This document shows positions 2,652 to 64,000 of a stretch of 64,000 nucleotides of DNA, piece by piece. A program made the position numbers and the translations under genes. The stretch covers positions 174,486-238,485 of the forward strand of contig JACVRA010000077.1 of NCBI GenBank assembly GCA_019828545.1, written 5' to 3'. Origin of the DNA: Paracamarosporium sp. OC-R06-R3. Its lineage: Eukaryota > Ascomycota > Dothideomycetes > Pleosporales > Didymosphaeriaceae. The notes beneath the pieces are model-generated. The model did not search any database and was not told where the DNA came from. It saw only the letters and a program-made list of their open reading frames with translations. Position 1 is the first letter of the stretch. Every line of letters begins with the position of its first letter.

Positions 2652-3358
2652 CTGAGTGAGGCAGATATCACAGCACAGAAACCCACTAGTTTGAGCTGTG
2701 AAGGAGTCTGTTCCGGCCTTGGTGAGTACTCGAAGAGCAATAAGACTATGTATTATACAGGAGGTGTATGATCAAAAGAAAGCAAAAGGTACACGGATGA
2801 AAACCGGAACGCCGATAGACTTTGCAGATATGTCGAGTGGTCGGAGAATCTCAACAGTTTGGGACAAGATTTGGAATGGACAGTTATCTCATGGTATTGA
2901 TAACGTAGACGAGAGCAATCGAACGGGCTTTGTCTTATGTATATAGTCGTCAGGGAGATGCACGGTGTTGAGGCGTGCAATATAATGCATTCGGGTAATT
3001 CGATAGGAACACCTACCTGGATTTATTGTGAACTGTTCGATGTTGTGCAACACAATCGTTATAGGAAGCGATATGTGACACTTCCTATTTTCGTCTGAGC
3101 AATAATATCAGGAATGGGGGAGTAAAGGACTGTGAGCCGAGTGGATCGTCCAAGTGGAGCTCACCCTCGCACATGCCAATCATCTTCGCCTCTGTTGCAC
3201 GCCCTGTCGGAGCGATGACACATATGCACAGAGGTGTTGGCCACTCGCAAATTGGAGTGTCGACTGTAGAGCAGGAAAAACAATAGCCTATATAATTGAT
3301 TTTATCCCACAAAGACTCATCAATCAGGTGATTAGCGACTCACCAAAATCGATACCAC
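2652..3358. other. Intergenic, no gene recognised
   Basis: Stretch between the AT-hook gene and the tRNA gene. The short open frames on both strands have no recognisable features. A TATA-like run (TATATAATTGATTTTA, about 3288-3303) lies about 60 bases upstream of the tRNA 5' end and could help place Pol III, but this is only suggestive. Confidence 0.4.
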
Positions 3359-3511
3359 GGTGGTATGGTCTAGTGGTATGACGTCGCGTTGTGGAAACAC
3401 ATGATAATTCCGCGCCAGCCTGGGGTAGGTTGGCCCTCTCCTCGAGAGGATCTATCAATCCAATGAGCAAAAGTACTGACTGTCGTGACAGTTCGATTCC
3501 CAGTACCGCCA
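3359..3511 (+). tRNA. tRNA-His (GTG) with anticodon-loop intron and a second insertion in the T arm
   Basis: Acceptor strands 3359-3365 (GGTGGTA) and 3504-3510 (TACCGCC) pair over 7 bp with one G-U, followed by A73 at 3511. The D arm has A14, G18, G19 and A21 and pairs GTC/GAC. The anticodon loop reads TTGTGG (3389-3394), giving GTG for histidine; A73 also fits eukaryotic tRNA-His. Bases 3395-3409 fit a canonical 37/38 intron whose CACA can pair with the TGTG of the anticodon loop. The anticodon stem is TCGCG/CGCGC with one T-C mismatch at 27-43. The T stem CTGGG (3420-3424) is separated from TTCGATTCCCAG (3492-3503) by 67 nt (3425-3491). That insert begins GTAGGT, has TACTGAC at 3474-3480 and ends ACAG. 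Without it the T arm is a perfect 5-bp stem with invariant TTCGA. A degenerating tRNA pseudogene is the main alternative. Confidence 0.7.
3425..3491 (+). other. Candidate spliceosomal-type intron inside the tRNA-His T arm
   Basis: The 67-nt insert sits between positions 53 and 54 of the tRNA. It has a 5' GTAGGT, a consensus fungal branch site TACTGAC 11 nt before the 3' end, and a terminal CAG. ACTGTC/GACAGT form a short hairpin overlapping the branch site and 3' end. The insert's final AG followed by TTCGATTCC leaves a near-consensus B box. Its size and signals match the protein-gene introns in this window. Confidence 0.6.
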
Positions 3512-3529
3512 GCAACGTTATAAGCGTTC

Positions 3530-3536
3530 TTTTTTT
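3530..3536 (+). terminator. Pol III terminator (T7) of the tRNA-His gene
   Basis: A run of seven T residues begins 19 bases after the tRNA 3' end, the normal place and form of an RNA polymerase III terminator. It argues that the upstream tRNA gene is a transcription unit rather than a chance tRNA-like fold. Confidence 0.7.
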
Positions 3537-3748
3537 GAAGACACCCCACCTTACAATCAATTTTTTGGTCGTGTGTGGGGGTATTGCTGTCATTAGCGAT
3601 TCGTAGCGCTAGTGGGACGGCGGTGAATGGCAGGGATCCGAAGCAGGGGTCGATGGAAACCGCTCCGAAGTAACCCCGGCCTCCGCGTCTAACTTTTTGT
3701 CGCGCCGATTGAGACAGGTCTGTATTCATCACCGCACGTTCGCACAGC

Positions 3749-14409: not shown

Positions 14410-17400
14410 TTAAGCAAAGACATCCGTCGCAAACCTCTCGTTTCTCAAACCCTCAAACCACTCCTTCAACTTTCCCTCATCTACATCTCCGCCCTTTTTC
14501 CTTTCTCTCTCCTGTCTCGCGATCTTTAGACAAACATCCTCGACACCCTTGCCTACCTCACGGCTCCCGCACACGAAGAGTTTTGCGCCAGCATCAAACA
14601 GCTCAACTACTTCTTTACGGTCGTGGTAGAAACGATCTTGGACGTACTTGCAGCCTTCTGATGACGGGGAAGAAGACGAAGAAGAAGAAGAAACACGAGA
14701 GAATGCGTAACGGAGAGAAACAGCGCCGAGTTTCTCCCAGCGGGAAAGCAGGTCAGAGTAGAGAAGGTCGGTGTTCGGGTCACGGCAGCCATAGAAGAGA
14801 AGGGCAGGTGCAAGGGTGCGGCCAGCTGCTATTTGGGCGGCGCGTTCTTGGATGAAGCCTCGGAAGGGTGCAAGACCTAGATGCAAAAATTCGGGTTAGA
14901 ATACGTTTTAGCCAACACTCCATCTTTGTCTAAACTTACCGGTCCCTGCAGCAATCATGATTACTGGTACATTTGTCGCATCTTTCGGCAGGTGGAATGC
15001 CTGGTGCGAGCTCCTCACCGCAACATGGAGTTTGTCTCCTACAACCAAGCTTGAGAGATAGCTAGAGGCCACACCTACAAAGCGGCCTTGACCACTAAAT
15101 GCAGGCTGATCGACCACAGCATAGGTGAGAGTGATGTTGTTGGGGTTCCAAAGGGGTGATGAGGATATCGAATACTGGCGTACACGCATTGGAGGCAGCA
15201 TCTTCAGAAACGGGCCAAGTGGTAGGCGCACAGAGGGGAACCGTTCGAGCAAATCAAGGACGGATACGCGCTTGTCGGTTATCTCAGCGGTGAAGGCTTC
15301 TGTGGAAAGAAGGGTGAGCTCATTCTTTGCAGTTTCGTCAGAAGTGACTTCAGCAAGAGCAGTAATGTCGCGTTTTGTCGCAGGCTGAGCGAGCTCTACA
15401 TAGGCTCCGAGGACATCAGTTGCCGAGATGGGCGTGTCGGTTGGTAGCGTTGTAGGGCCAGACGACGAGATGGTCAACATACTGTCCCAGGCCAAGCCGA
15501 AGTATCTCATAGCTCGAGCAATGTTCTCCTTGGGGTTCAAAGGCAGAATTGCAAGATAGTCTCCTGCAGAGTAGCTCATGCCTGATGGCAAGCTGATCTC
15601 GATGTGTCGCTTCTCGGGTGCACCAGGTGCACTGAGCACTTCCACCGCTTCCACTCGTGCCTCTCGAACATCCTGGCGAAGCATAGATGATCGTGGGGTG
15701 GAAACCTCAATGTCGAAACTAGCCTCGAATGGAGTATGATCGGACGAGTCTGAGACACCGTATCGCTCCTTCAGGGCTGGCCAAAAAACTTTGTCTTCCC
15801 AAGCCTCAAACTCAGTAAAGATATCGCCCCTGGAAGCGTCGGCAGTGCCGATATCCGCTATTCTTGTCCCACCACGTTCTTCAATGGCCCTGTCTATTGC
15901 CTTGGGCACTCTGTGGAACGTGCTAGCCCAGTCGCGGTGACCACAACCGAAGACAGCGTACTGCACATTGGTGAGCTCCGAGCCCACCAAACTGTTGAGC
16001 CAAGTGACGAAGTGAGCTGCGTTGTCTGCGGGTTGACCTTCATAAGAAGCCGTAATAATAGCGATTGGCCTGTCTTTCGGTAGGTTCTCTTTCACTGCGT
16101 CTAAAGTGTCTACCACCGCGCTGAAACCATGATTTGCTGCATCGCTGGCAAGTCGATTTGCAAGAGCTTCACACGTTCCTGTATTTGAACCGTAGTAGAT
16201 AGCCATTGGCTTACCTTGAGCCTCCCTCTTCTTGGTCGCTTGGCCTGTCTTCTCGCCTGCGGGCTCGTTGATCGTTGTCGAAGCAAGAGCACGCTCCAGC
16301 GTAGTAGCAGACATGCGGTTTCTAAGATGAGCTCGCATATAGAAGCCCTTCGGCTTGATGGTAAGCGTCTGTTTGATTTGAAGCTGATATGAGGGGTCTT
16401 CCATGGTGAAGTTGAAATTCTGCAGCAGTATCGCCAGTACTAGTAGAGCTTCTTGCCAAGCAAAAGGCCTTCCGATACATGCTCTCATGCCATTGCCAAA
16501 CGGTTTCCAGCAATTGGGGAACTCGTTGTTGCGGCGTTCAAACTCTGCGTCTAGCATTCTTTCGGGACGGAACTCTTCCGCGTCCTCACCCCATACAAGG
16601 GGGTCGCGGTGCAACTTTGGCAGCAATGCAACGATCGGGACGCCCTTCTTACATTCATATCTCCCCCCAAGCGTTGTGTCTTCTTTGGCGTGCAGGCCAA
16701 TTGCAGGAGCAGTTGGCTGCAGGCGGATGGACTCACGCAATACAGCGTTGAGGAAAGGCAGCTTTGTGAGATGATCAACCGAGATGGGATTGTGCCCAAT
16801 GACCTCATCAACTTCCTTCTGTGCCTTCTCATAAGCATTTGGGTTCTTCAATAGGTAGTAGAAGGTAAATGACAGCAGACCAGATGTAGTCTCATGACCT
16901 GCGATGAGGAATGTGATAAGGTTATCTATCACACTCTCTTCGCTCATTTTGGAACCAGTTTTGGGGTCTACACCATTCAGCATTCCATTAAGTAAATCCT
17001 TCTTGTCGGTTGGGCTCTGTTTCCGCTTGTCGATGACTTCCTGACTCGTTTTCCTTAGCAGCTCCACATTCTCCCAATACTGGGCAGTTTCAGTGCGGTA
17101 GAAAATTTGGGAGATGGGATCTCGGCGTGCTCGATCGCCACTGACTTTCAAGAAGTCAGCCATGGCCTCCACGAAGGGATGCATGTGCTCCGAGTAGTAC
17201 GAGTTGAAGCGGTAGTCCATGGCACATAAAGCTATCGTATCCAAGGTCAAGCGTGTAAAATCATCAGTTACAGAGATTGTTTGTTCTGGGCCCTGGCGCG
17301 CCCACTTCATGACCAGTTGCGAAGCGATATCGTGCATTTCATCAAACATGTTCCTAATGGCCAACGGGCCTAGGGCGGGGAGGAGGACCCTGTGGGCAAT

Positions 17401-17746
17401 GCCCCAGTTCTTCTCCTCGGGCCCTCTGGCGGTGAAAAGACCGTCATGGGTCCCGTTGCGAACTTGCTCGAGAGAAGCGGCGATGGTCTTTGAGAAACGG
17501 TCTTCGTTGCTGACTTCGTTCATGAGCGCCTGCGAGGCTATGACGATGCGGTCCCCGGCGATGTGGAATTTCCAGATGGGACCTGAGATGATGAGCGAGG
17601 GGGGACTGCGTCGATGGGGATTCGGGGGACGAACCATAGATATCTGTCAAGCGTACGAAGCTCAGCATAGGGTTCTCGCCATCGATGTCGCCCAGGTTGC
17701 CTATGATGGGCAGGCCAGGCGGGCCTGGCAACGGTTCGTACTCCAT
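14410..17746 (-). CDS. Self-sufficient cytochrome P450-reductase fusion (CYP505 family, fatty-acid hydroxylase type)
   Basis: Three exons (17746-17635, 17582-14940, 14876-14410) give 1073 residues, the usual size of CYP505/P450foxy and BM3-like enzymes. The P450 half begins PLPGPPGLPIIGN and contains the I-helix AGHETTSG, ESIR (K-helix ExxR), FRPERM and the haem loop FGNGMRACIGRP. A short linker leads to the FMN domain with YYGSNTGTCEALANRL. The FAD/NADPH half has RQYSISSSP, GRFVGVASSYLS, MIAAGTGLAPFRGF (joined by the last intron), FYGCRDPNTDLLY and VCGSREVG. The family hydroxylates fatty acids near the omega end with NADPH and O2 without a separate reductase. A run of eight Ser lies in the NADPH domain (about 14680-14697). 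It is divergent from NPR3, with 282 bases between start codons. Confidence 0.95.
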
Positions 17747-58982: not shown

Positions 58983-59046
58983 AACCCCTACCTAACCCCT
59001 ACCTAGATTTTTAGTACTTTTTTTGGGTAGGGGTTAGGTAAGGGTT
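58983..59046. repeat. 22-bp inverted repeat of C-rich/G-rich telomere-like units
   Basis: AACCCCTACCTAACCCCTAC and its continuation (58983-59004) pairs with GGGTAGGGGTTAGGTAAGGG and its continuation (59025-59046) at 20 of 22 positions. Similar GGTAAGG/TAGGGG units also occur at 58938-58965 and around 59062-59080. Confidence 0.7.
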
Positions 59047-59509
59047 ACATAGACTAGAGGTAAGGTAGGGGTTATTACTAATAAGTTAAGGTAGGTCTTA
59101 CTTAGCTAAAATTTTTTAAAAATCCCTAATAGGTATATTATTAATATTTTATTAGTAAGGAAAAGATTATTTCTAGCTATTATTAGAATAAGTAATATTA
59201 ATTTCAATTATTATAGCTTATTATTATAGCTTATTATTATAGAAAAAGAATGTAGGAACTATGTCTTATTTCTATAGAAGCTATTTTATATAAGTTATAA
59301 TTAAAAATCCTACTACCCTAGGAACTACCTATTCCTTAGAAACCTAATTATTTAAACTTGTTATAATATTACTAAGTAAACTATAAGTCTTTTACTTAAA
59401 TTATAACACGCTAAACGTAAATAGCATTAATTATATAATCTTTTAAAGTTAGTAGATATAGCTAATAGGTAGAAAACAATAATATACCTTTAAAGTATCT
59501 AATAAAAAA

Positions 59510-59577
59510 AGCTTTAGTAGCTTTTTATAAAGCTTTAGTAGCTTTTTATAAAGCTTTAGTAGCTTTTTATAAAGCTT
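59510..59577. repeat. 21-bp tandem repeat, 3.2 copies
   Basis: Three identical copies of a 21-bp unit (59510-59530, 59531-59551, 59552-59572), beginning AGCTTTAGTAG, are followed by the first five bases of a fourth. The copies are identical although the surrounding DNA is heavily mutated. Confidence 0.9.
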
Positions 59578-59914
59578 CTAGAGTAGGTTTATAGAACTAT
59601 ATAGTATTATTAATTCTTATTTTTTAAGTAATCTCCTACACAAGTCTTGAGAAAGGTGCCTTAAGAAGTAAGAGATTGGTAGACTTTTAGTATTTCTTAA
59701 TTTTATAAAGAGCAATGGCTACGTACTATTAATTAAAAACTATAATAATAAACTATAATAACTTATTACCTAGCTTATACCTACGCGGCTTCTTTATACC
59801 TATTATAGGCTTTTTCTTAGGAGCTTTGTAGGTAGCCTTACTTATAAGGTCTTTTCTAGGCTGCTTATTAGCTGCTATAGTCTAAAGCGGCTTATTTGGT
59901 CTACTTCTAAACAT

Positions 59915-60198
59915 TATAGAGAAGTATAAACAAGAGATTATTATAAAAGTATATAATTATTCTAGTACGTATTAAGGTATTAAGGTATTATAGAGAAAGT
60001 AGAGTATTATAGTGTTTTAATATATAAATACTTATATAATTACTAAGCTATTTAAGTTATGTATATATATCTACTTAAACCTCCTACCTATTTTATTTAC
60101 CCTACTAGCTATTAGCTATAATACCTTAATACCTTAATACCTTAATATATAATTATATACCTTTATAATAGTTTATTATTAATACTCCTCTATAATAG
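59915..60198. mobile_element. MITE-like element with ~80-bp terminal inverted repeats
   Basis: Bases 59915-59997 and 60118-60198 are approximate reverse complements. Shared blocks are ATTATAGAG, ATTATAAA-GTATATAATTA and two to three ATTAAGGT units. Total length is about 284 bp and there is no coding capacity. Boundaries and target-site duplication are uncertain. Confidence 0.45.
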
Positions 60199-61544
60199 CT
60201 AAAATTAAGTATAAGTTACTTAAGACCTTTCTTTTTAAAGTCTCTATTCTTAAGGGTTTTACGTATAAAGAGTTCTTTACCCTTTTAAAGGTATTAATAC
60301 TAGTCTTTTATTATAGTAGTTACTAATTTATATAGGGTTAGGCATTTAAATCTATTAAAATTAGTAATATCCTTATACTTTATAGTTAGGCTAGATTAAA
60401 GAAAGGCTATTCTATAAATTCTAAGTTTATCTTTAAAGGAGTGCTTAGTTTAAGTTTATATACTATTTAGTAGAGAGATTAAGCTACCTTATATTTTAAA
60501 GAGGAGTAAATTATTAAGAAAGCCTACGCTTTAGATTACTAAGTAAAATTATAATTAAAAAAGAAGTTATAAAAAGACAATAAATATAATACCCTATTAA
60601 ATAAAGATAAGATTATAATACTTAATAATTAGTAGGATATTAAGGCTAAGAAGTGCTTTAATACTTAAAAGAGTAGTTAGTATTATTATAGCTTTTTATT
60701 ACGTTTACTTATTTTTTAATAGCTAAATAGCTTAAGTCTATACTTACTTATACCTATAAAAAATAGGCTAGAATCTAAGATAAGATTAATAAAAAAACCT
60801 TTAAAAATGCATTTAAGAAGTTAATAACTATAGTTATTTCTTTAGTAATAACATCCTTAATAAGTTATAGTACTTCTTATATTTAAGGTACTAATAATAC
60901 ATTAGATAGAATTTAACGTAAGGCTTACTAAGAAGGGAAAAAAAAGCTTTAGACCTATACTTTTAAGGATAACTAAGAGAAGGCTATATATATATAGTTT
61001 ATCTAAGATCTTACTACTAAAGAGCTAAATATAGTATTTAAAAAAGACTTTTAATAAATTATTATATACTTTTATTATATATATTTATTTATCTTATTAG
61101 ACTATTTAAGCTTTTAGCCCTACCTACTATTTAAGGCAAAGCTATAGACGTTAACAATCCTTATATAGAATTTAAAGAGAATAAGTATACTAAGAAGAAG
61201 GATAAAGACTCTAAGATTAATAAGATATTTAACTAGACTAAAAATTATTATAATAAAGATATTCTAGCTAGTAATAAGGAAATAGATAGTAAGGAGATAA
61301 ATAGTAAAGAGATAAATAATAAAAAAGAAATAAACTTTAAAGGGTTTTTAAACTAAAATATATACTATAAATTCTAATAAGTAGGAATACGCTATAGCTA
61401 AACATTAATAATAGCTAATTATTATAGACTTATTATTATATAACTAAGGATTTAATATAATTATAGTATTTTAAATAATATAAAGCTATTTATATTTCTT
61501 TATATTCCCTTTATAAGTTTTAACTATCTATTAATTTATCTATT

Positions 61545-61742
61545 TGTTATATGGGTAGGTAAAGAGTACCTGTTTTTACCCTATATAGGATATTGGGGCC
61601 TGTTAGGCCCCGACGGGACACGTTAAGTAATAAGGGGTTATATTATACTAGAGCTGGCAAAAATAGTTAGCTAGTAATTCGTCTATCCTATAATTTATTA
61701 TTAATTCCCTTAAGTTAAGTCTATATTACTACTACCCGTGAC
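61545..61742 (+). mobile_element. 5' LTR of a Ty3/gypsy element
   Basis: The 198-bp block starts TGTTATATGGG and ends near CCCGTGAC, just upstream of the degraded gag region of a plus-strand gypsy element. Its inverted relative lies at 58546-58749. The terminal CA is not seen, which RIP could explain. Confidence 0.6.
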
Positions 61743-64000
61743 CTAATATTTGAATTACTCTTACTTTTACGTAAGTAGTCTAGACTAACTTACCTCTATA
61801 GACTCTAAATAGGCTAAATCTAGGAGCAGCTAGGCCGCCCAAGACTCTTACGTTATAGTCTTAGTAGATAATACTAATTTAGTAAGTAAAGACGTACAAT
61901 TAACTCCGTCTCTAATAACTCCTCCTCTTCTCTATTAACTAGTAATAACCTACGCTAGTTAACGCCTACTAGCGCCTAACGGCTTAAGAGAGGACCAGCC
62001 AACGATAACTATAATTAGTTAGGATATAATAGACGACGGCACGTTTAGTAACCTAAATATAGCCCTTAAATAGCTAAGAGATAAAAGAAACGCTGTAGAA
62101 CTATAGTATATAAATAACATTTGGCAACGTTATAAGTTAGGCGATGCTAGTGTACTCTTTAAGTCTATATAGGATACTATATAGTAGTAAGGAGTTATAA
62201 AGACTCCCTTTCTATAGCCACTAATACAAAAGTAGCCTTATAAGTATACGTAAAAGGATTATTACAACTTTAACTAGTAAAAGAATAATTATAAACTTTA
62301 CTTTTAAGCCTTAAAAATATATTTTATTAGTAAATAAATAAAGATTAATTATACTTTATAATTTGTTTCTAACGTCTTTTATATAGTCTAGAAGACTAAG
62401 GTCTAGTCTTAATTATTAATGGATCTATTCTAGAAGGAGATATAAGAGGCACTAAAGGGAAAGATACTTTAAGCGTTAAGATCCCCTAAAGAATAATGCT
62501 AATTAGTATATAATTAATTAAAACGGTGCTAATAGAGGCTAAACTAGGCCCCTTTAGATCTATTAAACTATTTTTAAAGCTATTAGAAGGAGTTAAAGGT
62601 TACTAATGTTAAATATTAAAAGTTAGAGTTTATTAGGTACCTTTTTTTATATATCTAACAACGCCTACAAACAATTCTACTAGAACTTAAAATAATAATA
62701 TTTAATATTAAGCTTTAGGCTTTAATTATTTTTAGGATAGAAAAATTGTCTATAATAAGGGCTATTTTTTTAGTTTAAGAATAACTACCTAAGAACTAAT
62801 AGTAGAAGTTAGAAACTAGGGGGAATAATAGACCTTAAAAGTAAATAAAGAAGGCTAGTAAGTAGGGTAATAGTCTAAGAAAGAGTAGAGTAATACTATT
62901 AAAACCTATTAAATCTAATAATATATTAATATACTATTATTATAATAAAGTAGGATACATCTACCTAGACTATTCTACTCTTAATAAGGCAGCCGCCTCT
63001 AGGTTATAAGACGCTAAGGTAGATAAAGAAAAGTTATACTTATTAAAAAAAGATAAGTAGTAGAAGGACTTATAGTAGTCCTATCTACCTATATTAATTT
63101 AATTATAAACTATATTAATTAAGTCCTAGAGGTTTATAAAATAGGCTTATTGTTTAACTAGCTATATAAGCAGCTAAAAGGGATACTTACCTTTAGGGCT
63201 AAAGTTAAATAAAAGTTTATAAAAGCCTTAGTAGACTTTACGTCTACCCTAAACCTCCTCTCCTTAACAAAGGCTAAATAGTTAAGGGTAGATATAATAC
63301 CTTTAAATAATTTACTTATAAAAGTAGTAAATAAGTCTTAAATAATAATATATAGTACTATAGTCCTTAATACGAAGCTTATAAACTCTTAAGAATAAAA
63401 GTAAATTTAAATATTACTATTTATAATAGTAGACCTTTTAAGGTATAATATATTCTTAAGTTTACTATAGTTTAACTAAATAAACCTAAAGGTAAACGTT
63501 GTAAGTTATTAAATCCTTTTTTAAAAGGAGATTAAGGGATTATATCTCCCCTTTAAGAAGATTACTATTAAAAGTATAGAGGAGTTTAATTATATACTTT
63601 AAAACCTATATACAGCTATTTATACTTATATAGTATTAGGCATAGGTAACTTAGTACTAAATAGACCTATTAGCCCTAAAAAGGGACTAATGTTAAATAT
63701 CTACTTTAAGTTTAAGAACTTTAGCTCTAATAAGAACTATAAAGCTATACTAAATTATAATAAAAATAATCTATATATAGAGCTTAAGTTAGGCTAGTAA
63801 CTATTATATTTTCCTATATATAACCTTATAGTTTCTAAATTAGAGACTTTCTAAAAGTATATTAAGGAATACCTTATAAAAGGTTAAATTTATTACTTAA
63901 AATTTCTAGTAGGGGCGTTAATCCTCTTTATAAAAAAGAAAGATAGTAGCCTTAGGCTTTATATAGATTATTAAGGACTTAATAAAATTATAATTAAGAA
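61743..64000 (+). mobile_element. RIP-degraded Ty3/gypsy retrotransposon, gag-protease-start of RT, cut by window end
   Basis: The plus strand shows, in order, a gag-like region (about 61.9-62.9 kb), a CCHC zinc-knuckle position (62932-62973), a protease-like stretch (about 63222-63265, ALVDFTSTLNLLS where intact elements have a DSGA-type site) and the start of reverse transcriptase (63903-64000). The RT part reads GALILFIKKKDSSLRLYIDY, a stop, then GLNKIIIK, matching the conserved gypsy RT entry. Stop codons occur throughout, and changes are of the C-to-T/G-to-A kind expected of RIP. The copy is certainly inactive. No primer-binding site can be read after such mutation. Confidence 0.75.

Follow-up and report, generated by a model that had tools for sequence, protein, structure and literature searches.

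Introns in nuclear tRNA genes are regarded as the business of the tRNA endonuclease, and the locus described here raises the question of whether a tRNA precursor can also be a substrate of the spliceosome. The window, as the whole analysed stretch of 64,000 nucleotides is called below, forms the terminal 64 kb of contig C317 in a fungal genome that comprises 337 contigs and 43.1 Mb, and it contains a tRNA-His(GTG) gene that is broken in two places, the anticodon loop and the T arm. Taken together, the comparisons presented below indicate that the 67-nt insert in the T arm is probably a U2-type spliceosomal intron, carried by a functional nuclear tRNA-His gene that is transcribed by Pol III.

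The split gene and its signals

Table 1. Features of the tRNA-His(GTG) locus, in window coordinates.
Feature	Position	Strand	Basis and remarks
tRNA-His(GTG) gene	3359-3511	+	three exons (36, 15, and 20 nt; 71 nt total)
Exon 1: acceptor 5' strand, D arm, anticodon GTG	3359-3394 (36 nt)	+	ARAGORN with insert removed; identical in C18 and C37
A-box region TGGTCTAGTGG	3366-3376	+	sequence
Canonical anticodon-loop intron	3395-3409 (15 nt)	+	ARAGORN; identical in C37, unrelated 8-nt intron in C18
Exon 2, ending in T-stem 5' strand CTGGG	3410-3424 (15 nt)	+	identical in three paralogues
9-bp exon-intron helix (3414-3422 with 3426-3434), 5' junction in loop	3414-3434	+	predicted by RNAfold; predicted in C18 too
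T-arm insert between positions 53 and 54, proposed spliceosomal intron	3425-3491 (67 nt)	+	none in C37; homologous 65-nt insert in C18
Putative 5' splice site GTAGGT	3425-3430	+	sequence; kept in C18
Hairpin within insert (3435-3440 with 3444-3449)	3435-3449	+	predicted by RNAfold; 5-bp form predicted in C18
Branch-site motif TACTGAC, 11 nt from insert end	3474-3480	+	sequence; kept in C18; fits RCTRAY (PMC5832005, available text)
Putative 3' splice site CAG	3489-3491	+	sequence; kept in C18
B-box-like AGTTCGATTCC, first two bases contributed by the insert's end	3490-3500	+	sequence
Exon 3: T loop TTCGATT, CCCAG, acceptor 3' strand, A73	3492-3511 (20 nt)	+	identical in three paralogues
T7 run, likely Pol III terminator	3530-3536	+	sequence; T-runs also 3' of C18 and C37 genes

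An earlier note on this DNA had described a tRNA-His gene split by 67 nt between positions 53 and 54, and the coordinates that it gave prove to be exact. With the insert in place, ARAGORN makes no call, and the Rfam tRNA model yields 26.9 bits, which is below its gathering score of 29. With 3425-3491 deleted, ARAGORN run with its intron option returns tRNA-His(gtg) with a 15-nt intron and a cloverleaf displaying the GTG anticodon; without that option, it returns tRNA-Ser(gga) from the same deleted sequence. The restoration of the T stem that the note had attributed to removal of the insert is reproduced by computed pairing probabilities, which for the five T-stem pairs are 0.0 with the insert and 0.83-0.995 without it. 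The downstream T7 run is likewise where the note had seen it, as are the GTAGGT start, the TACTGAC motif 11 nt from the 3' end, and the terminal CAG. The junction has a one-base ambiguity and can be read in two registers, one of which satisfies GT..AG. TGGTCTAGTGG and AGTTCGATTCC are the putative A and B boxes of the gene; at the place of the latter, the intact paralogue on contig C37 has GGTTCGATTCC. On these features, the locus appears to be a functional nuclear tRNA-His gene that would be transcribed.

The signals within the insert resemble those of U2-type fungal introns in all three parts. The donor, GTAGGT in both the window gene and its split paralogue on contig C18, is one mismatch away from GTRWGT; the branch sequence, ACTGAC in both copies, agrees with RCTRAY and leaves 11 nt to the end of the insert; and the acceptor is CAG in both, a form of YAG. 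For comparison, the available text of a study of fungal U3 introns (PMC5832005) describes donors of which approximately two thirds are GTRWGT and most others differ by one mismatch, RCTRAY branch sites, YAG acceptors with a preference for CAG, and a branch-to-acceptor distance of 6-36 nt. To gauge how often such a combination arises by chance, every 67-mer was scored for a GTRNGT start and a CTRAY 4-25 nt before a final YAG. The set occurs in none of the 127,867 other 67-mers on the two strands of the window and in 2 of 222,818 67-mers from other loci, some of which had been chosen by intron-like patterns; the one-base register ambiguity doubles the chance of meeting it. Across the genome, GTAGGT..TACTGAC..CAG in full shows no enrichment, with 12 matches (three rows of which are the two split tRNA-His genes) versus 19 in the reversed control. 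Since a pattern this specific is expected to be rare among real introns too, we regard the lack of enrichment as uninformative.

Three introns of a protein-coding gene in the window, placed by homology with borders set by eye, have the branch motifs TACTAAC, CTTAC, and CTGAC. The gene encodes a methionine aminopeptidase 2 whose best named matches, from Paraconiothyrium, Karstenula, and Bimuria, reach 84-86% identity. Paraconiothyrium brasiliense and Bimuria novae-zelandiae belong to the Didymosphaeriaceae, Pleosporales, so that the host is probably a member of the Pleosporales. A splice consensus trained ab initio on the sequence gave 31 candidates, 13 of them with CTRAY, and was dropped as too noisy. 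Elsewhere in the window, a 909-aa open reading frame on the minus strand (14908-17637) combines cytochrome P450, flavodoxin, and FAD-binding domains, as in a self-sufficient P450-reductase fusion. Toward the contig end, the terminal 5 kb (59001-64000) are AT-rich, with a GC content of 0.19-0.35 in 500-base steps, and in 60001-64000 TA/AT is 1.75 and (CA+TG)/(AC+GT) is 0.16, values that we take to be typical of repeat-induced point mutation (RIP).

Paralogues and distribution in the genome

BLAST with the window locus identified two more tRNA-His loci in the nuclear genome, on contigs C18 and C37. When 28 nt of the 5' half are used as a pattern that tolerates up to three mismatches, exactly three places in the genome match. 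In the C18 gene, the insert has a 65-nt homologue at the corresponding position, approximately 20% diverged, in which donor, branch site, and acceptor are all kept; the 8-nt anticodon-loop intron of C18 is unrelated to that of the window gene. The C37 gene has no T-arm insert, carries the same 15-nt anticodon-loop intron as the window gene, and is detected by ARAGORN, which finds neither of the two split genes as they stand. The earlier note had held that other intact tRNA-His(GTG) genes, together with the absence of any spliced or precursor RNA from this locus, would point to a pseudogene; the count of three loci supplies the first half of that combination, in the form of the C37 gene.

The mature parts of the three genes are identical at 71/71 positions. 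The inserts of the window gene and C18 are identical in 52 of 67 alignment columns, with 13 mismatches in the 65 ungapped columns, and the identity is unevenly distributed: all 15 columns at the 5' end agree, as do 17 of the 19 that begin with the branch site, compared with 20/33 in the middle. Pooled, the ends (32/34) differ from the middle (20/33) with a Fisher p of 0.0012, a value obtained from two sequences only, with borders set after the alignment had been viewed. Within the same limits of two sequences and post hoc borders, the inserts thus follow the pattern of a U2-type intron in which the signals are conserved and the interior drifts.

Over approximately 10 kb around each locus, the window and C18 have in common only the gene and its edges (3353-3541), so that the pair represents neither a recent segmental duplication nor an assembly copy. 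The window and C37 have 3319-3424 in common at 91.5%; because 3359-3424 is identical in the two, the nine differences fall in the 40 bases 5' of the gene. With C18, the window gene shares the insert and the bases adjoining the T-run. Judged from this distribution of similarity, the window gene may be a gene-conversion mosaic.

An Rfam tRNA scan of the genome gave at least 62 matches (63 of 1284 candidates scored), and neither split gene is among the matches listed. Contigs C26 and C300 are rich in tRNA genes, and we take them to be mitochondrial from their tRNA order; the 34 matches that lie elsewhere were used as the nuclear set. ARAGORN recovers all 34, of which 23 have an anticodon-loop intron. 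The B box followed by a T-run, in its GG form, occurs in 118 rows versus 2 in the control. The AG form that would be left by an intron ending in AG (AGTTCRANYCC..TTTTT) occurs in 13 rows at 10 places versus 13 in the control, and CTGAC..AGTTCRANYCC occurs at 10 places versus 9. Among the hits of both AG patterns, which detect only inserts ending in AG immediately before TTC, the two tRNA-His genes are the only ones that look like tRNA genes, as judged by eye and by ARAGORN on the first set and on one locus of the second. These B-box and T-run patterns thus reveal no second isotype with a T-arm insert in the genome. A 22-mer across the 3' junction matches no stretch in genome_contigs and none in viral_contigs, which are prokaryote and virus collections.

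Among other Pol III RNAs, the inspection covered U6, of which there are two full copies, and U3, of which one gene was found; none of these genes has an intron. On contig C302, a full U6 gene has a 5'-truncated copy (62 bits) as its neighbor, approximately 220 bases away and oppositely oriented (locus L097, 1501-1572 and 1792-1891). The U3 snoRNA gene, at C317:70019-70240, is intronless, unlike most Pezizomycotina U3 genes described in the available text of PMC5832005. Two further types of locus came to light. An approximately 75-base conserved element (AATCAAACAAAAAC..GTTCTTTGAGCCGGGCTTCGAAGTGGCTTTTAG..), followed by B-box-like CAGTTCAA, occurs at three places (L018 on C197, L078 on C327, and L079 on C330) and has no Rfam match at gathering score. 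At C119:18433-18460 (L073), A-box-like and B-box-like stretches are accompanied by a T-run with no ARAGORN tRNA call, perhaps a tRNA-derived SINE.

Competing accounts of the insert

The spliceosomal reading is favored because the insert lies exactly at 53/54 and its removal restores both tRNA-His and the T stem, because donor, branch site, and acceptor occur together, because C18 carries a homologous insert with these signals while the mature parts are invariant, and because the aminopeptidase introns of the window use comparable branch motifs. It also draws on the available texts of the cited papers, in which Pol III RNAs with spliceosomal introns are known (U6, PMC8917221; U3, PMC5832005) and 37/38 is given as the sole cleavage position of the yeast tRNA endonuclease (PMC4033280). 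Counted against it are the intact C37 gene, the mismatch of GTAGGT to GTRWGT, the lack of enrichment of the full pattern, the intronless U6 and U3 of the host, and the predicted position of the 5' splice site within a 9-bp helix in both genes, which this reading leaves unexplained. The central proposal of the earlier note, an intron of the mRNA type, thus gains a diverged homologue with the same signals, an invariant mature sequence, and a negative scan for bulge-helix-bulge motifs; the C37 gene weighs on the other side, and the splicing itself is read from DNA.

The intact C37 gene also makes room for another account, in which C37 supplies all nuclear-encoded tRNA-His, and the two split genes are duplicates that inherited an insertion and are now silent or dead. 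This account accords with the available text of PMC4090602, according to which a eukaryotic T-arm insertion mostly affects a single gene among several synonymous ones and is supposed to mark a pseudogene. In the present genome, however, two of the three tRNA-His genes are split, rather than one among many. Exons and insert should decay alike in dead genes; instead, the exons show 0/71 and the inserts 13/65 differences, which argues for function, and at the insert's mismatch rate the probability of 0/71 mature mismatches is approximately 1e-7 by our own arithmetic. The anticodon-loop intron of C18 is unrelated to that of the window gene, the flanks of the genes have diverged, and both split genes retain T-runs as well as A- and B-box-like sequence. 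Conversion from C37 might account for intact exons but fits less well, because the 15-nt middle exon of C18 sits between two introns that the conversion tract should have replaced. With these points in view, we regard dead duplicates as unlikely. If selection has kept the tRNA gene, then the 67-nt break in its T arm must be removed, an argument drawn from three sequences.

That removal could be the work of the tRNA endonuclease or another structure-reading nuclease, with joining by tRNA ligase, in which case the insert would be a non-canonical tRNA intron and its likeness to an mRNA intron fortuitous. T-arm introns occur in archaea (53/54 included), nucleomorphs, and Cyanidioschyzon merolae, as described in the available texts of PMC4090602 and PMC9602550. 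Both copies, moreover, are predicted by RNAfold to expose the 5' junction in the loop of a hairpin; among 100,000 random 30-mers, 0.19% form a junction-spanning helix of 9 bp or more. The helix might hinder U1, reflect the origin of the insert, or be read by another enzyme. The bulge-helix-bulge motif (two 3-nt bulges and a 4-bp central helix) is nevertheless absent from both genes in both registers, with 3/4 or 2/4 pairs in the central helix, 1/4 or 2/4 in the outer helix, and 1/3 in the inner helix, in a scan of the strict rather than the relaxed forms that had no working positive control, the canonical introns of the same genes scoring no better. The earlier note, which saw no such motif, is in agreement with this outcome. 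Given also the 37/38 specificity described for the yeast enzyme and the very low probability that donor, branch site, and acceptor coincide by chance, a non-canonical tRNA intron is quite improbable.

Introner-like elements have been described in Dothideomycetes (PMC4457414, available text), and the insert could be an introner-like or transposed member of a family in the genome that landed in a tRNA gene by chance. Such an origin, which is compatible with spliceosomal removal as an account of where the intron came from, would lead one to expect many near-identical copies in other genes, but copies are found only at tRNA-His loci. BLAST, in a search that skips very common words, detects none beyond these loci; the first 16 bases of the insert occur exactly only at the two split genes, and with up to three mismatches at 236 places versus 254 in the control. 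Whole inserts fold no better than shuffled sequences (z 0.19 and -1.0), and no target-site duplication of more than one base is seen by eye. This account is very improbable. A self-splicing group I or II intron, with a catalytic core of a few hundred nucleotides, is dismissed on the length of the insert (65-67 nt) and the absence of an Rfam match above the cut-off in the window.

A putative two-step maturation

On the preferred reading of a spliceosomal intron, Pol III, directed by the internal A and B boxes, would transcribe the split tRNA-His gene as far as the T7 run. The spliceosome would recognize GTAGGT, form the lariat at the adenosine of TACTGAC, and join CTGGG to TTCGA after the CAG, thereby creating the T stem and loop. 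The tRNA elbow would form only after this T-arm splicing. The precursor could then be processed at its ends, exported, and freed of its 15-nt anticodon-loop intron by the tRNA endonuclease and ligase. tRNA end processing, export, and the endonuclease use the elbow, which the unspliced RNA would lack. We infer the order of the steps from this need of the later ones for the elbow, and transcription and spliceosomal removal from the features of the gene. The chances seem to us evenly balanced that two of the three nuclear tRNA-His genes in this fungal lineage depend on two unrelated splicing machines acting in strict succession, in which the spliceosome would have to create the T arm before the endonuclease could act, with the T-arm intron as a gate.

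Such a pathway has partial counterparts in known systems. The canonical anticodon-loop intron, of which the split gene itself has one, lies at another position, lacks mRNA-type signals, and is removed by the endonuclease. To our knowledge, there is no case of an mRNA-type intron in a tRNA host, and a non-exhaustive literature search of titles and abstract openings, with few subscription journals, brought up no tRNA gene with a spliceosomal intron. A close precedent, invoked in the earlier note and borne out by the available text of PMC8917221, is the short GT-AG intron in the U6 snRNA of Schizosaccharomyces pombe, where the spliceosome excises it from a structured RNA made by Pol III. The present case differs in that the host is a tRNA, removal would be by analogy, and the U6 of this genome is intronless. 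Similarly, the vast majority of the Pezizomycotina examined have a U3 snoRNA, likewise made by Pol III, that is interrupted by introns of the form GT..RCTRAY..YAG (PMC5832005, available text); here the host is a tRNA and the U3 gene found is intronless. The introns of archaea, nucleomorphs, and C. merolae also interrupt the T arm, in archaea at 53/54 among other positions, and may coexist with a canonical intron (PMC4090602). As far as the available text of that paper goes, those of archaea and C. merolae are cut by the tRNA endonuclease at bulge-helix-bulge or related motifs, whereas the scan finds none in the fungal gene, and no mRNA-type splice-site or branch motifs are described for any of them. 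By this comparison, mRNA-type introns in RNAs made by Pol III are known as a kind, and what would be new is the tRNA as a host.

If the spliceosomal reading is true, genes of this kind escape tRNA finders, as ARAGORN is blind to both split genes in their unmodified form. Pol III tRNA precursors could then be substrates of the spliceosome, and tRNA would be added to the Pol III transcripts, U6 and U3, in which mRNA-type introns occur. For the organism, the supply of tRNA-His would depend on the capacity of the spliceosome.
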